Source of the DNA: Halanaerobiales bacterium | GTDB taxonomy: Bacteria > Bacillota > Halanaerobiia > Halanaerobiales > Halanaerobiaceae | NCBI GenBank assembly: GCA_016278485.1 | Contig: JADQBT010000006.1 | Span: forward strand, 1-64,000 | Direction: 5' to 3' | DNA: 64,000 bases | In this document: one piece after another, positions 1,018-8,735 of the stretch | How the letters are laid out: each line of letters starts with the position of its first letter | Position numbering within the stretch: position 1 is the stretch's first letter | Program-made: the position numbers and the translations under genes | The notes under the pieces: generated by a model | Told to the model about the DNA's origin: nothing | Seen by the model: the letters and a program-made list of their open reading frames with translations, nothing else | Databases searched by the model: none

Positions 1018-1140
1018 ACTATTCCAAACTCCCTTTCACCAGTATTTTCTTTTTTAATAATTAACTTTAATATAATAAAAACTGAAGTCAGTATGGCGGA
1101 GTCACGGTAGGATTAGCGGTTACCCACTCACCCCCGCACA

Positions 1141-1173
1141 GATCTCGGCATGCGGAATTACCGCACCGAGCTC
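1141..1173 (-). ncRNA. Group II intron domain V
   Basis: On the minus strand GAGCTCGGTGCGG and CCGCATGCCGAGATC form a hairpin with a two-base AT bulge and a short loop. This is the 34-nt catalytic domain V layout, with AGC in the lower stem. It lies 24 bases beyond the maturase stop codon and is followed by a domain VI-like stem, as expected. Confidence 0.85.
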
Positions 1174-1196
1174 TTCAAGAATACTCACTTCCGTAA

Positions 1197-2543
1197 TCAG
1201 ACAAATTTGAATTGTAACTGGGCTTCTGTTTTCTCTGTTATTCTAGGTTTGCATATCCCATACCAACCTACAATCTCATTGAATTTACCCCAGTTCATGC
1301 TTCTTCTCTGGCTTCTTCTGTTTAGCCATTTATACAGTATCTTTATAGATATATTGTAAAATTTCTTTAAACTATCTCCATTATTTATCAGTCCGTAGTA
1401 GTTATAGTATCCTCGTAGCTTAGAATTCAGTGTCTTAAATATTGTTTTAAGGCGTTTGTTTCTCATCATTTTACACCACTCAGTAAAACTCTTGATTGAC
1501 TTCTTTAATTTCTTCCTGGAAGTCCTTCTCTTTATAATATTTTTACCCTTATGAGATTTACTGCATCTGAATTCAAAACACAGAAACTCAAAACTACCAC
1601 TTTGATTCTTCTTATATCTTGAGAATAATATTATGTTTGTCTTCTCTATTGATAGTTCCAGGTTAAATTTTCTCAATCTCTTCTGCATTTCATGGTAAAA
1701 CATCTCTGCATCTTGTTTATATCTAAATGCACAGACATAATCATCTGCATAACGATAGATACATGCATCACTTGTCCTCTTCATTACTACTCTCTTAAAC
1801 CAGATATCCAGTACGAAATGTAAATATATATTTGCAAGGACTGGGCTAATTATTCCTCCCTGAGGGGTACCTGTTAACGGATGAATAACTTTCCCGTCTT
1901 CTTCTAGTATGCCTGCTCTCAACCACTTCTTGATTAGTCTGATAAACTGTTTGTCATTTATTCTTTCTTCCAACATCTTGACTAACCAGTCATGGTCTAT
2001 ATTGTCAAAGAAGCCTTTAATATCTGCTTCCACTATATAGTTATACTTACCAAACTGTAATTCTTCTGTCAGGTCTATTACTGCCTGTTTTGCACTTTTG
2101 TTTGGTCTATATCCATAACTTTCTTCTATGAAATCCTGTTCATAGATAGCTTCCAGTATATCAGCTACTGCTCTTTGAACTATTTTATCTGATAGTGCAG
2201 GTATTCCTAATGGACGCTTCTTCCCATTTCCTTTGTCTATGTATTTTCTTCGTACTAGTTTTGCATGATATCGTTTCTCTTTCAGCGACTCCAGTATGTT
2301 ATTGAGATTCTCCTCTAAATTTTCTTCAAATTCTTTGGCTGTAATCTTATCCACTCCTGCAGCTGCTCTCTTGTTTAATTTCTTCCAGGCTAACCTTAAT
2401 GCTCCTTTGTTTATCTGCCTGTACAAGTCACGAAAACGATATTTTACTTCTCTTTTTGCCTTCTGCGATATTCCCTCCAGTGAGGTTTGCACTAAATATT
2501 CCGACCTTGCTCGTTCGGTTAGTGTTTCCTTTGAAGACTGCAT
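1197..2543 (-). CDS. ltrA: Group II intron reverse transcriptase/maturase
   Basis: The 448-residue intron-encoded protein copies intron RNA into DNA and helps splicing. The finger and palm motifs are in order: KKRPLGIPALSDKIVQRAV (108-126), ESYGYRPNKSA (141-151), the VEADIKGFFD aspartate (171-180), TGTPQGGIISP (224-234) and the catalytic YADD (265-268). A maturase/thumb region follows to the end (GYYNYYGLINN, then GWYGICKPRI). There is no HNH endonuclease after the thumb, so mobility would use the endonuclease-free route. It looks intact. The start at 2543 has a purine-rich GGGGAAGGGG 11-20 bases upstream. The sequence does not look like typical class C proteins to me, although its target resembles the attC target of group IIC-attC introns. 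Confidence 0.92.
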   Translation of the reverse strand: MQSSKETLTERARSEYLVQTSLEGISQKAKREVKYRFRDLYRQINKGALRLAWKKLNKRAAAGVDKITAKEFEENLEENLNNILESLKEKRYHAKLVRRKYIDKGNGKKRPLGIPALSDKIVQRAVADILEAIYEQDFIEESYGYRPNKSAKQAVIDLTEELQFGKYNYIVEADIKGFFDNIDHDWLVKMLEERINDKQFIRLIKKWLRAGILEEDGKVIHPLTGTPQGGIISPVLANIYLHFVLDIWFKRVVMKRTSDACIYRYADDYVCAFRYKQDAEMFYHEMQKRLRKFNLELSIEKTNIILFSRYKKNQSGSFEFLCFEFRCSKSHKGKNIIKRRTSRKKLKKSIKSFTEWCKMMRNKRLKTIFKTLNSKLRGYYNYYGLINNGDSLKKFYNISIKILYKWLNRRSQRRSMNWGKFNEIVGWYGICKPRITEKTEAQLQFKFV

Positions 2544-3171
2544 ATTCTTGTCAACCCCTTCCCCATGTAGCCGGCTCTCCCGACCTCGGAGTACTATGAG
2601 TTGATCCGAAGTCCTGTTGGTTTCTGGTCTTCCTTCTTGTTTGGTTGGATAGACCTACCAGCCTACTTATATCCTTATTATCTTGTATCTAAGCTGGAAC
2701 CCACAGGATTCCTCCCAAGTTCCTGATATTCCTCTCTCTTCATGCCAAGTTCTTTGACCCCGACAGACCCTCCAGAGTCTCACCATTGCGACTCTTTTGT
2801 GTTGACTTCCATGACGTTAAACATGTCGTCATCTGCTCTTTGTCTGTTTCCAGACCCTCTACTAACGGGGCTGAATATGCTTCAGGAATTACGGTATTCC
2901 CTCTGGCCTAGAGAGTTCTCTGTGTACACTTCACCTGATAGTTACCTATTTCGGTGCAACACTCGATACAGGTGGTTGGCTAGACCTTACCTGACAAAGA
3001 CTGACTAGATAAAAAAATTCATTAACGACTACTGCTTTATCCCAATGGACAGCGAGGTAGCAGTAGTCGACCTTCTGTCTGGCATGTTTGTTATGACCTT
3101 ACCATCGGTTCATTTTGCGTTGAATCTTTCTTCTAAATTTCACTTTGCAAGAAATATCAAACTTCTTGGCG
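2544..3171 (-). other. Gene-free 5' part of the group II intron (domains I-III)
   Basis: No ORF with a credible ribosome-binding site is found on either strand. The stretch has paired motifs such as GACTACTGC (minus strand, about 3070) with GCAGTAGTC (about 3028), consistent with a folded ribozyme. I assign it to intron domains I-III by position and length. Confidence 0.65.
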
Positions 3172-3308
3172 TTCTAACGTCCCTGAGCTTCACGACGTCT
3201 CATCAATGCTCCTAACCTTAAATAAAGTATAAAACTTTCATATGTCATCCTTAGTTTTCATCTATGCTCAATAGACTAGATGTCGTTAAGCTCATGTTAG
3301 CTGACGTA
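3172..3308 (-). repeat. Structured imperfect-palindrome element B (intron target)
   Basis: The arms TGAGCTTCACGACGTCT (3184-3200) and AGATGTCGTTAAGCTCA (3278-3294) pair at 15 of 17 positions. They are bracketed by CTAACGTCCC on the left and ATGTTAGCTGACG on the right, matching the framing of A and C. The interior differs from A and C. It lies just beyond the stop codon of the STAND gene. The group II intron begins at its CTAAC/GTTAG core at 3173-3178. Confidence 0.72.
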
Positions 3309-3332: not shown

Positions 3333-6300
3333 TTATATTTTATTTCTGATACAGTATTCTTCTAATAATTCTCTACTCAAGAATAAATAAATTATTGATG
3401 GAATTTCAATTATCTCTTTTAGATTTTTTCTCCAGTTATATAATATCTGTAAAATTTCATGTAACCTATAATCTTTACTAGGATCAAATTCACTAGGATT
3501 AATCTTCTCACCCAATTCACTTACTAAATCCACAATTTCAAATCTATCCATATATTGAGGCTTAGATCTTTCAGGATGATTCTTTAAATAATCAAGTAAA
3601 CATCGAGTTCTATTTTCCAAATCATCCATAATCTTTTTTAATAATCTAGTTGTTTTTTCAAATTTAATGAATACTTTCTCTATATATTCATCAGTATAAT
3701 TTTTAAGTATTTCATTTGCTAATATTTTTTCTTCTGATAATTCTTCTAATCCTTTTAATTGGGTAACATGAAACAAATAATTATATAGTTCATAAAATTC
3801 AACTTCAAATTCTTCCAAAACCTTTAATTCTGAAATATAGTCAAACCACCCTTCAATATTTAATTCTTCTAAAATTTCCTCATTCAATAATTGAGGAACT
3901 AAATCAAAAAATTCTAAATTCTCTTCATCGATATCTAACAATCTATATAATTTAATCTCATAACTCCTTAAATTTATAACTTTTCCTTTTACTAAAGGAA
4001 TTACTCTAAACTTTTGAAAATTTAATTCTGCTAATATTCGCTTAAAATAAGAATCTTTTATAGACTGAAAGACAGTTTTTAAATTCTTAAAAGTTTTTTC
4101 TAAGCTTTCATTTAAAATTAAAAAATCAGGTATATCTAATAGTATTACCTTTTCTTTCTCTAAAGATTTAACAATATTTACATTTATATTATTATTAGAT
4201 AAATTATTAAGTTTATTTTGTATATTGTTTTCCATATCTTTTTTAAATTCTATAATTTCTGTTTCAGCCGTATTAACTATATCCATATCATATTTAAAAT
4301 ATTCAATTGCAAATTTATTCCATACACCTAATAATATTTTATAAGTTTCTTCTTCTTCAGTTTTTAAATTTATTATCTCATCATCATCCACATACTTTCC
4401 AAAAATCCGTTGAAATTCTCTTTGAAATTGATTATAAGTCTTTAAAATATTCCCTAAATTAATCATACAAATTCTATTAATATCATCATCAAATCTTATT
4501 CCATTAGCTTCAAATATTTTTTTAATTTTTCTTTTTTCCTTCATACTCTTCCCTTTAAACTCTGTTTTAGCTAATATAATATTAATAGCTTGCTGTAAAA
4601 AATTTTGAACTGCCACCTTAAAATTACTATATAAATCTTTAAATTGACTATATCTTTGAAGATTAAGTGCAATTTCAGGTAACTGATTAGAAATATCATT
4701 TACTTTCCTACCTTCACTAGTAAATCCCCAACTATCTACTACTGTTTTAGGAAATGGAACTTCATAGCAGAAAGATTTTTTTAAATTGTCCCATTCCAAA
4801 CTTGAAATATACTTTCCAAAAATGTTTACCTTACTTTGCTTTTTAAAATGTTCACCTATACCTTGAATTAATTGCTTTAATATGATAATTAATTTTTCTC
4901 TTTTACTTATAATATTTTCAACATATTCTGTCCAATTATCTGGGCGATATTTCCAACTTGCTAATTCACCAAAAATAGCATTTATATTAGTCAACCATTT
5001 TAAAGGCAGATTTCTTATTGGAATTTTTTTCTGAGTATCATCTATGTCATAAGGTATTAAATCAAACTTATGTCCATATCCTTGACTTGCAAAAATTTTT
5101 CTATCAGGATAAACTTTTCTCATTAAATTTATATTCTTCATTATCTGTGCATGAATAAAATTATCTTCTTCTATATCTTTTCCTTCAATATTAATTATAC
5201 AATGTAAAGTTAATTTCTCTCCATCATCTTCTATAATTGGAACATTAAATTCTTTTTTGAATCTACTAATAAATTTAGGTCTAATTTCGCTTAAAACTTT
5301 TCTACTATCATTTGAATTATAATAATATAACCCAGCTAATATATCAGCTATATATTCTAGTGAGTTTAATTTTAATGCTTTATTATAATCAAATTCAATT
5401 AAATTAATCTTTCTTTCTATATTCACTTTTCCTAACCAAAATAAAGCTTCACCACAATTTGACCAATCTTTGTCTGAATCAGGAAAATCAGTAGGTAATT
5501 CTACCTGTCGAAGATAATCATCTAGAAAGATGTATATGTTATCTCTATTTTTTCTTAATGTTTTATGCCATCCATTAATTTTATCTTTTATGTCTTGATT
5601 TATATTAGGTAAATCAATTTTTTCAAAAATATTAATTGGCTTATCAGACATAGAATTACTTATATCTAAACCTAAAACAATATACCATCCATATCCAAAC
5701 CTATCATATACCTCATCAATTGTATTGCGATTTTTTTCAACATATTGTTTAATACCAAACCATAATAAACTATTAATCACTCCATTAAAACCCACCCAAG
5801 AAGATAGTTTAATATCCTTCAAATAATTTAAGATTTCCTCATATTTAGTATGTTTATTTAAAGAATGTAAAATGAATATTTTTAAATCTTCTTCTGCTAA
5901 AACTGAAATACACTTCTTAATATATTCATTTTTAGGCGATATAACTGGATCAAATAAAATATCAATTAAAATTTTTGACCTAATAGAATGTAATCCTGTC
6001 AAATACTTGCCATTTTCACTTCTCCTTAGCAGATATTCTTTTTCAAATAATTGTAATATATATTTTGGAGCACTAAGTTCAAGATTTGAAAGTAAGGAGC
6101 TTAAATCTACTTTTCCATCATATGCACTAGCCAAAGAAACAATTTTTAATAATTCTAACTGCGTAGATTCTTCGCCTTGACTTATCCTTTTTTCAATATT
6201 TTCTATTTGTTGCTTTAATCTATCTTTTAATGTATTACCTTGAGTAACTAAATAAGTAAATTCTAATAAAGGTCCTTTCTCTCCAAAACTTAACCATGCT

Positions 6301-7562
6301 TCCTCGAAATCCCTAAATTTAACATCTGGCTTTCTTTCTATCAGTTTTTTATAAATTTTTTCAGCTTCTAAACGATTAAAATTTAATTCCATTTCAGAAA
6401 ATATTAAGTCAGCTCCTGTTAAAGAAGACCTCTTCCAATCTTCTTCTCTAATAGTAACTAACACTTTAAATTTTGTATAATTATTTGCAACTTCTTTCAC
6501 TATTTCTGTCCATTCGACATTACCAGGCTCAACATCTATATAAATCATTAAAGGTAAGTCTACTGATTTAGATATTCCATATAAAGTATTAATAATTCTA
6601 CGTGCATGAGATTTTCCTTCTATATAGTTAATTTGATATGAATAATTAGTTGGATGGAATTCATATAAATAACGATAAGCTAATGTACTTTTTCCTTGCC
6701 CTGAAGCCCCATGAATAATTACTATATTATCTTTTTCGAATTTTTTCTTAATCTGTCTAATCTTTTCTTCTCTAATTACATCTAAATTATTTTTAATATG
6801 AATATATTTAGCAGATACTCCAACATAAAATTCCTCTCGTACTCGTTCTATAGATTCCTCTTTTTCAACTTTCATATAATCTAATGGTAAAATAGTATTA
6901 CCATATTCTTCATGAAAACTAACTCTTTCATTTAAAAACATACCTATTTGATCTAATTTATTTAATAAGGAATGTCTATCTAGAAATCCTTCTTCTTCTG
7001 ACAATTCATAAATCCAATACATTAATAAATCAAAAGCAATTTGATAATCAACTGTTACTTGAGGATTTTTTCTTAGAGCCCTTTTTATATTTTCTATAAT
7101 TTTACTTTCTTTCACTTTTTCTATTTTTAAATTTTTAAAAATAAGTTCTATTTCTTCTTCTTTGTAATTATAATTCTCCTTCAATTTCTTTTTTACCTTA
7201 TCCCTATCTATTCCCTCTTTTATAATAGCATTATATAATTCAGGACCTACATTCCCAAAAACTACTAAATTTAATTTAGAGGCTTGTCCCTCTTTTAAAG
7301 TCTTTAAAGACCTTCTAAAAAAAGAGTCATCTTTTTGAGGAGAAAGAGAAGATAAAGATAAATTAGTAGAATAATTCTTTACTTGTACCACTTCTTTAAG
7401 ATTAATATTATTATCATAAACCGCTAAATCTTCTTTTCCTTCTGGTTGAAACTTAAACTCATCTTCAGTGTGATTCAATATTCTATTAACTATATATAAT
7501 GTTTGCGTTCTAAATCCTCGAAAAGCAGATTCAGCCCCTATATCAGATTTCAATCTACTCAC
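3333..7562 (-). CDS. Nuclease-STAND ATPase, putative anti-phage effector (about 1,409 aa)
   Basis: The N-terminal ~110 residues carry a DUF4297/Cap4-like PD-(D/E)XK pattern: IGAESAFRGFRTQTL, then PEGKEDLAV (about 40-48), then VVQVK (about 58-62). A P-loop HGASGQGKST is at 284-293 and a Walker B LMIYIDVE at about 338-345. GLHSIRSKILIDIL marks the helical part typical of STAND NTPases. About 850 further residues form a large C-terminal sensor-like region without recognisable repeats. GTG at 7562 is chosen because AGGAG lies seven bases upstream; the ORF stays open 17 codons further but has no Shine-Dalgarno there. The size and domain order resemble Avs-type defence proteins, which sense phage proteins and then cut DNA. 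That role is inferred. Confidence 0.8.
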   Translation of the reverse strand: MSRLKSDIGAESAFRGFRTQTLYIVNRILNHTEDEFKFQPEGKEDLAVYDNNINLKEVVQVKNYSTNLSLSSLSPQKDDSFFRRSLKTLKEGQASKLNLVVFGNVGPELYNAIIKEGIDRDKVKKKLKENYNYKEEEIELIFKNLKIEKVKESKIIENIKRALRKNPQVTVDYQIAFDLLMYWIYELSEEEGFLDRHSLLNKLDQIGMFLNERVSFHEEYGNTILPLDYMKVEKEESIERVREEFYVGVSAKYIHIKNNLDVIREEKIRQIKKKFEKDNIVIIHGASGQGKSTLAYRYLYEFHPTNYSYQINYIEGKSHARRIINTLYGISKSVDLPLMIYIDVEPGNVEWTEIVKEVANNYTKFKVLVTIREEDWKRSSLTGADLIFSEMELNFNRLEAEKIYKKLIERKPDVKFRDFEEAWLSFGEKGPLLEFTYLVTQGNTLKDRLKQQIENIEKRISQGEESTQLELLKIVSLASAYDGKVDLSSLLSNLELSAPKYILQLFEKEYLLRRSENGKYLTGLHSIRSKILIDILFDPVISPKNEYIKKCISVLAEEDLKIFILHSLNKHTKYEEILNYLKDIKLSSWVGFNGVINSLLWFGIKQYVEKNRNTIDEVYDRFGYGWYIVLGLDISNSMSDKPINIFEKIDLPNINQDIKDKINGWHKTLRKNRDNIYIFLDDYLRQVELPTDFPDSDKDWSNCGEALFWLGKVNIERKINLIEFDYNKALKLNSLEYIADILAGLYYYNSNDSRKVLSEIRPKFISRFKKEFNVPIIEDDGEKLTLHCIINIEGKDIEEDNFIHAQIMKNINLMRKVYPDRKIFASQGYGHKFDLIPYDIDDTQKKIPIRNLPLKWLTNINAIFGELASWKYRPDNWTEYVENIISKREKLIIILKQLIQGIGEHFKKQSKVNIFGKYISSLEWDNLKKSFCYEVPFPKTVVDSWGFTSEGRKVNDISNQLPEIALNLQRYSQFKDLYSNFKVAVQNFLQQAINIILAKTEFKGKSMKEKRKIKKIFEANGIRFDDDINRICMINLGNILKTYNQFQREFQRIFGKYVDDDEIINLKTEEEETYKILLGVWNKFAIEYFKYDMDIVNTAETEIIEFKKDMENNIQNKLNNLSNNNINVNIVKSLEKEKVILLDIPDFLILNESLEKTFKNLKTVFQSIKDSYFKRILAELNFQKFRVIPLVKGKVINLRSYEIKLYRLLDIDEENLEFFDLVPQLLNEEILEELNIEGWFDYISELKVLEEFEVEFYELYNYLFHVTQLKGLEELSEEKILANEILKNYTDEYIEKVFIKFEKTTRLLKKIMDDLENRTRCLLDYLKNHPERSKPQYMDRFEIVDLVSELGEKINPSEFDPSKDYRLHEILQILYNWRKNLKEIIEIPSIIYLFLSRELLEEYCIRNKI

Positions 7563-7636
7563 AATATCACTCCTATCATAGAAAAGAAATTTACAAAATA
7601 AAATTAATTTCACATTTTTATATAAAACTGAGTATG

Positions 7637-7804
7637 TCAGCTAACGTTCCTAGGATTTCCGACGTTATCGTCCCGTTAGGGTTGGCATGTCTTTTGCTAC
7701 TATAACCCCTTACCCCTTTATTGCAAAAGACATGACAAAGATAATGTCCCGTAGGGTAGCCGGTCTTTGGCGTAACGGAAATCCTATGTTATCCGAAGTG
7801 CTTA
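7637..7804 (-). repeat. Structured imperfect-palindrome element C
   Basis: The outer arms AGGATTTCCG (7652-7661) and CGGAAATCCT (7776-7785) are perfectly complementary. So are the inner arms CATGTCTTTTGC (7686-7697) and GCAAAAGACATG (7723-7734). Small hairpins CCC-GTTA-GGG and CCC-GTA-GGG correspond to GCC-GTAA-GGC and CC-TAAAA-GG in A, again with compensatory changes. GGTAGCC and TCTTTGGCG are shared. The ends read GTCAGCTAACG and ATGTTATCCGAAGTG. It fills the gap between the 265-residue gene and the STAND gene. Confidence 0.85.
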
Positions 7805-7811
7805 TATCTTA

Positions 7812-8609
7812 TTAGCCCATAAAATTGCTTATTAAACCCCCTAGAAATAAAGTAATAATAGTATAAATTAAATATAGTAACCAATGACTTTTAACTAATT
7901 CGAAAATACTTTGAGGATTTAATCCATATATATCAAATATACTTGAATTAGTTTTTAAGGAATTATTAGCCCATCTTTCTATTATCGTTTGAAAAATATC
8001 AACTTTTCTTAAAGTCGACTGATGTAATTTAACAAATTCTTTATTTTCAAAGCATTCAGCTTCTTTTTTACCAGTCAAAAAGTCTCTTTTTGTAATATTA
8101 TTTTTTTCCACCAAACTTTTCAATCTTGGATGGCCAATATAATTTAAACCATATAAACTAACGATAATTCTTGCTAAATCAAATTTTTTACTTTCATTAA
8201 TTTTTACAGGGTCACCACCTAAAACTGAAAATCTATTTTTTATTGCTTCAAATCCATAATTAATATCTCTCATGTTCCAATGAATCCAATTAAAATTCTT
8301 ATGTTCTTTAACAAATTCAAAATATTCATTTAGCATTTTATATTCTAAGTTATCATAGTGTGATTCAATCTTATTTAAAGCTAGTCCTTCACGCTCTGCT
8401 ATCTTATGTATCGAAAAAGATTTAGTTTGACCACTTCCAAAAAATCTAATAGCTATCGAGGTTACTCTTGGTGTTCTCCCATCTTCAATGTCATAAAAAC
8501 TTTCACAAGAATAATGAATAATCAGTATATTATCATCATTATTAATTAAATTACTCAAAGTATCTTTAGCTTTTTTTCTCTTTTTAATTTTATAACTTGG
8601 TATTCCCAA
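7812..8609 (-). CDS. Unknown 265-aa protein with C-terminal membrane anchor
   Basis: I cannot name the family. The protein opens with basic residues, then a stretch with scattered acidic positions (ILIIHYSCESFYDIEDG, about 28-44) and WIHWNMRDINYGFEAI (about 108-123). KFDLARIIVSLYGLNYIGHPRL and KLHQSTLRKVDIF follow. It ends in one hydrophobic segment (about 242-262), suggesting a tail-anchored membrane protein with a cytoplasmic domain. An RNase H-like fold is possible but unproven. The start is TTG at 8609 with AGGAGGG six bases upstream. It lies between elements C and D in accessory DNA, so a defence role is plausible but is inferred only from location. Confidence 0.7.
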   Translation of the reverse strand: MGIPSYKIKKRKKAKDTLSNLINNDDNILIIHYSCESFYDIEDGRTPRVTSIAIRFFGSGQTKSFSIHKIAEREGLALNKIESHYDNLEYKMLNEYFEFVKEHKNFNWIHWNMRDINYGFEAIKNRFSVLGGDPVKINESKKFDLARIIVSLYGLNYIGHPRLKSLVEKNNITKRDFLTGKKEAECFENKEFVKLHQSTLRKVDIFQTIIERWANNSLKTNSSIFDIYGLNPQSIFELVKSHWLLYLIYTIITLFLGGLISNFMG

Positions 8610-8628: not shown

Positions 8629-8735
8629 TAAGCATTTCGGATAACAATTTTCTTTCCGAACATAGTTTCGTATATACTTCTTCTAAATGGATATATCCCG
8701 AAGGTTATTTCGGATATACTTTCTTAGCTAAAATT
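8629..8735 (+). repeat. Divergent element D, inverted relative to A-C
   Basis: TAAGCATTTCGGATAAC (8629-8645) is the reverse complement of GTTATCCGAAGTGCTTA at the right end of C (7788-7804), with one mismatch. The other end reads TTAGC at about 8730. Short arms such as TTTCTTTCCGAA and TTTCGGATATAC suggest a stem, but pairing is poorer than in A-C. The two 17-base copies form an inverted repeat around the 265-residue gene. Confidence 0.45.

Follow-up and report, generated by a model that had tools for sequence, protein, structure and literature searches.

This locus raises the question of why a group II intron should lie exactly at the outer core of a palindromic element; namely, whether such elements are its normal target and, if so, what kind of intron and what kind of site have been brought together. 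The window, by which we mean the whole 64,000-nucleotide stretch analysed, is the start of contig C5 in a 2.86-Mb genome from the family of Halanaerobium. Three palindromic elements alternate with genes near its beginning, all on the minus strand: A at the contig start (95–263; profile match, E = 8e-38), B (3175–3305) and C (7634–7799). Downstream of the intron that interrupts B is a gene for a GIY-YIG protein of the PD-T4-3 family (295–1017; PADLOC PD-T4-3, E = 9.5e-113; Pfam LEM-3 GIY-YIG), upstream of B is one for a 1426-aa nSTAND NTPase (3333–7613), and upstream of C is one for a 265-aa protein (7812–8609) for which profile searches found no family.

A group II intron of 2,074 nt (1101–3174, minus strand) is present at element B and starts directly at its right-hand outer core, as the initial annotation had proposed. 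A conserved D1–D4 ribozyme region (2748–3004, minus strand) matches Rfam RF02005 (126.1 bits, E = 2e-35), and an uninterrupted open reading frame (1197–2543, minus strand) encodes a reverse transcriptase/maturase of 448 aa with RT and X domains and the YADD motif (Pfam RVT_1, E = 2e-38; TIGR04416, 375 bits against a cut-off of 300, E = 3.5e-112). Domain profile searches of the 448-aa maturase found no endonuclease domain. Domain V (1140–1174, minus strand), with the catalytic triad AGC (GAGC), and domain VI (1104–1137, minus strand), with a branch-point A bulged at 1108, come from a consensus fold of 17 D5–D6 regions of relatives, in which compensatory pairs are numerous and a UA is bulged. 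The same annotation had remarked on the lack of a clear GTGYG at the 5′ end, and the GUGYG motif is indeed absent; the intron starts with GAACG. The same start recurs in Halanaerobium saccharolyticum (L029) and in a second copy in the same genome, at the terminus of contig C10, which marks it as a feature of the lineage and not as decay. Other relatives start with GUGCG, GCGCG or GUACG, and we see GAACG as lineage variation of the consensus and no bar to group II membership.

The ends were fixed jointly by domains V and VI, the consensus of the RNA ends, the exon-pairing loop and 44 intron-free sites. At the 5′ end (GAACGCC) we used homology to the GTTA/GTGCGCC junction of relatives, most of which have GTGCGCC or a near variant right after GTTA, together with EBS1–IBS1 pairing. 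The 3′ end (CCUACCGUGAC) was set by domain VI, the AXXXXRAY rule and the divergence of flanks after GAY among relatives, most of which close with a domain VI that has a bulged A and then GAC or GAT. Two identical copies of one intron at different places in Desulfosarcina have flanks that diverge exactly at this GAC/GAT end. The exon joint is GTTA/TCCGCCAT, with the 3′ exon starting at 1100, approximately 9 nt upstream of the CTGAC from which the initial annotation had resumed the element. This 3′ exon (1093–1100, minus strand) is the remainder of the R′ box (consensus NNYGMMAT), after which the next cassette starts.

The 44 intron-free sites, all from the family of this element, gave a profile of the 8 nt after GTTA; on it, the joint scores 8.8 bits (median of the 44 sites, 9.5; minimum, 4.1), and 1100 is the top-scoring of 110 offsets tried for the start of the 3′ exon. 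The alternative joint (GCTGACTT) scores 1.7 bits, under all 44 real sites. The exact joint GTTAG/CTGAC is thus ruled out by the relatives, domain VI, the AXXXXRAY rule and the profile; intron-free sites do not show GTTAG joined to CTGAC as a fixed sequence, and the match of CTGAC to element C is a coincidence. The broader expectation, that excision rebuilds a normal site, survives this correction, as the joined site fits the intron-free profile. Elements of the B type without an intron occur in G003 (L138) and at L143 and L144; in G003 the two sides are joined as GGGACGTTA/GACGAAATGG. A search of 38 genomes of the order for an intron-free allele of the exact window locus, with the GIY-YIG cassette as anchor, returned only the window's own copy.

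The nature of the interrupted element is clearest from its family. Element C, the uninterrupted site (GTTAGCTGACAT), has a bottom strand that folds at −32.9 kcal/mol (z = −6.7), and a profile started from it recovers approximately 90 related elements in Halanaerobiales, A, B and C included. Across these elements the ends read TCRNNTAACAT...GGACGTTA-NNYGMMAT, TAAC and GTTA are nearly invariant, and AAC and GTT cores are conserved at the ends of a foldable palindrome; in B the R″ side is GTCAGCTAAC, the R′ side is CGTTA, and the interruption follows GTTA. The Halanaerobiales elements mostly carry TCRNNTAAC and GTTANNYGMMAT, and not the strict 7-nt R boxes RYYYAAC and GTTRRRY, and we therefore name them attC-like. 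They occur approximately once per gene, in a single orientation and in tandem arrays, with more than 20 elements in G017 and further arrays in G014, G010, G005 and G025. B was initially taken for a palindromic element of a different kind from attC; it instead belongs to this family of cassette arrays. By this anatomy, A–C are attC-like, putative recombination sites and the genes between them are predicted cassettes, so that the interrupted array carries a predicted anti-phage gene of the PD-T4-3 family. Cassettes elsewhere also look rich in anti-phage functions: those of Frackibacter (L133, 3726–7942) include TIR-domain, HNH and AbiH-like proteins.

Among the sampled arrays, those of G005 and Frackibacter (G038) have their first element right after an integron-type tyrosine recombinase. 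The Frackibacter protein scores 246 against TIGR02249 (cut-off, 265), and model positions of approximately 181–234, the IntI-specific region, are missing. Both array-preceding recombinases (L133, 2540–3622, in G038:C26; L135, at G005:C28:33997-34824) fall under the integron-integrase cut-off because this region is missing, and both run in the cassette direction. Halanaerobiales arrays are possibly integrons with a patch-less integrase. One could instead regard the elements as dispersed palindromic repeats to which an intron homes, given the departure from the strict R boxes and the nearby recombinase that lacks the IntI-specific insert. We consider this very improbable: the elements recur once per gene, in tandem and in one orientation, two arrays follow an integron-type recombinase, the R″ and R′ flanks mismatch within sites, and related introns sit at textbook attC sites where the genome encodes canonical IntI. 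Such flank mismatch is expected after cassette exchange. Upstream of the first cassette gene of the window, beside an M42 peptidase operon, the sequence GTTATCCGAAAT (8634–8645, minus strand) conforms to the R′ consensus and is a possible attI-like site; an integrase is absent there.

To place the intron, we built a tree with labelled class C, D, E, ML and CL proteins, taking the labels from the Sinorhizobium meliloti GR4 introns (PMC5894124); plasmid matches alone proved too general for a class assignment. As the RmInt1 row had a very long branch, the tree was rebuilt with RmInt2 added, and the result was unchanged. The window maturase falls in a clade of 16 rows (support 95/96) that is split from the class C rows with 100/94. 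Its identity is 43% to the class E protein S.me.I4 of S. meliloti, the nearest labelled maturase by this measure, compared with 35% to class D and 32% to class C, which bears out the initial impression that it does not look like class C. S.me.I4 and the window group form no supported clade and the deep forks of the tree stay open, so class E membership is likely but unproven.

How the intron would recognize its site can be read from a D1 hairpin loop. EBS1 (TAACGTC; 2813–2819, minus strand) forms 7 bp with IBS1 (GACGTTA; 3175–3181, minus strand), which is at once the last 7 nt of the 5′ exon and the R′ core of element B. This length agrees with the approximately 6 bp of EBS1–IBS1 pairing that characterize bacterial class E/IIB introns. 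The pairing is a rule of the group: among 20 related introns, EBS1 tracks the 5′ exon, with a mean of 5.55 bp for own pairs against 3.57 ± 0.30 for permuted ones (0 of 10,000 permutations reached the observed value). For the seven introns with a 5′ exon that does not end in CGTTA, the means are 5.6 and 1.8 bp (6 of 10,000 permutations), and EBS1 carries matching changes (8 bp in L033; 6 bp in L038, L046 and L051; 5 bp in L052). We found no 6–7-nt complement that could serve as IBS2 in the window intron. Hairpins at the insertion sites are significant on average and uneven by copy (mean z = −2.4; 12 of 24 exons below −2), and between the two copies of one intron at L179 and L181 the hairpins differ such that changes in one arm are matched in the other. 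The intron lies in the top strand of the attC-like site, co-directional with the cassette genes.

The position next to the core of a palindrome that can fold had initially been likened to that of group IIC-attC introns, and this likeness is borne out. Introns of that type (S.ma.I2) also target a folded attC core beside a hairpin that seems to stand for IBS2, pair through a short EBS1 and lack an endonuclease domain. They have a class C maturase and a CGC triad, however, and their insertion point is TTGT/T in R″ on the bottom strand of attC, which orients them against the cassettes (PMC7923331), whereas the window intron is class E-like, has an AGC triad, follows GTTA of R′ on the top strand and points the same way as the cassettes. 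The tree split, the triad and the strand rule out membership in IIC-attC, and we give almost no credence to an ordinary intron of that group here. Both insertion positions are on the 3′ arm of the folded strand that would be used, which suggests convergence of the two lineages.

Related introns span several phyla and are found mostly at (C)GTTA beside an attC or another hairpin. The same joint recurs at different attC sites: that of the window, one at the end of C10 (L132), and others in H. saccharolyticum (L029) and Frackibacter (L133) as well as in Chloroflexota, Planctomycetota, Ectothiorhodospira and Deltaproteobacteria; the 5′ exons of the window, C10, L029, L133, L037, L039, L040, L042 and others are attC-like, and those of L033, L046, L051 and L052 show no clear attC. 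Canonical IntI is encoded in 12 of the 16 genomes that carry the clade, compared with a background of 38% (104 of 274 gammaproteobacteria); we regard this co-occurrence, above background and not far above it, as moderately telling. No relatives were found in viral contigs. The second copy in the window's own genome is diverged, starts behind a further attC-like site and is truncated where the contig ends (L132, 7779–7825, equal to G000:C10:93778-93824); upstream of it is a 53-aa integrase remnant (G000:C10:91429-91575). G025 carries another intron lineage (maturase 48% identical) after attC-like sites (L006, L012 and L139), at a shifted joint that is apparently GTTATCTG/GTACG, and a further lineage (L015) that is not at attC sites.

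An alternative is a less specific habit, in which the intron targets hairpins or terminators in general and uses attC sites only as hairpins that end in GTTA. Copies at L031 and L034 follow terminator-like hairpins, those at L035, L036, L179 and L181 follow other hairpins, and Frackibacter has one identical intron twice, at an attC (L133) and after a terminator-like hairpin ending in AGTTA (L031). Nevertheless, EBS1 fits the attC core best: that of the Frackibacter intron forms 7 bp with the attC exon and 4 bp with the terminator exon. Intact copies, moreover, are mostly at (C)GTTA and many of their 5′ exons are attC-like. We therefore judge a generic hairpin habit to be unlikely, and the L031 copy is probably an ectopic insertion. 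Copies in unrelated targets had been named as evidence against the initial reading; the L031 copy lies after a terminator-like hairpin, so that the target is better described as hairpin plus core than as attC alone.

The reading that we prefer, with a probability of roughly 0.8, is that this is a mobile, endonuclease-less intron outside class IIC (class E-like, of IIB type) that normally targets the R′ core in attC-type sites of integrons. From the sequences one can read its ends and orientation, its exclusion from class C, the rule by which it pairs, its position in the target and the attC family to which this belongs; that it is active, recognizes a single strand and is primed there is what we infer. 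In the excised intron, with its bound maturase, EBS1 (UAACGUC) would pair with GACGTTA in the top strand of attC, and the neighbouring hairpin would assist by standing for the missing IBS2. The intron would then reverse splice after GTTA and be copied into DNA; as there is no endonuclease, the primer would presumably come from the replication fork. Top-strand entry after GTTA would leave the intron in cassette orientation and the G^TT crossover point of attC intact. With this point intact, an integrase could move the intron and the downstream cassette as one unit, and an intron that is co-directional and outside the cassette gene would, if splicing, be removed from array transcripts.

Some of this has precedent. 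A 2015 review describes homing to defined sites in all lineages except class C and presents insertion at attC as characteristic of class C (PMC4424553). Introns outside class IIC at attC sites of halophiles are nonetheless already known: Sonbol and Siam (2021) described the CL1 intron UHB.I2 and the class E fragments H.ha.F1 and H.ha.F2, and speculated on a role of the hairpin (PMC7923331). Like the window intron, these adjoin attC in halophile cassette arrays, have unusual 5′ ends and lack an endonuclease domain, and UHB.I2 is likewise co-directional with the cassettes, directly after attC. However, UHB.I2 is of another class (CL1) with the ends UUGCG..GU, H.ha.F1 and H.ha.F2 are 5′-truncated class E introns, and no conserved exon was found for them. 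What is added here is a complete element, a precise target (the core GACGTTA with a matching EBS1), a pairing rule and a clade of several phyla that shares it. As for the arrays, they resemble chromosomal integrons in their tandem gene-plus-palindrome cassettes, single orientation and adjacent tyrosine recombinase, and differ in their recombinase, from which approximately 40 residues of the IntI-specific region are missing and which has the same direction as the cassettes.

Taken as a whole, we lean slightly towards the view that a cross-phylum class E-like (IIB) clade came independently to target attC, on the other strand from that used by IIC-attC introns, through an EBS1 for the R′ core and a folded top strand, and that it rides co-directionally with cassettes, leaving the crossover point intact; in Halanaerobiales it would do so in defence-gene integrons with an integrase without the IntI-specific domain. 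That a second, unrelated lineage has reached the mirror-image position in one and the same folded site suggests that introns repeatedly find refuge in attC hairpins. With this system one can test whether IBS2 is replaceable by a hairpin in introns other than IIC, and it provides an attC-targeting ribozyme that is co-directional with cassettes. For Halanaerobiales, it marks the arrays as integron-like, using a recombinase without the IntI-specific domain.
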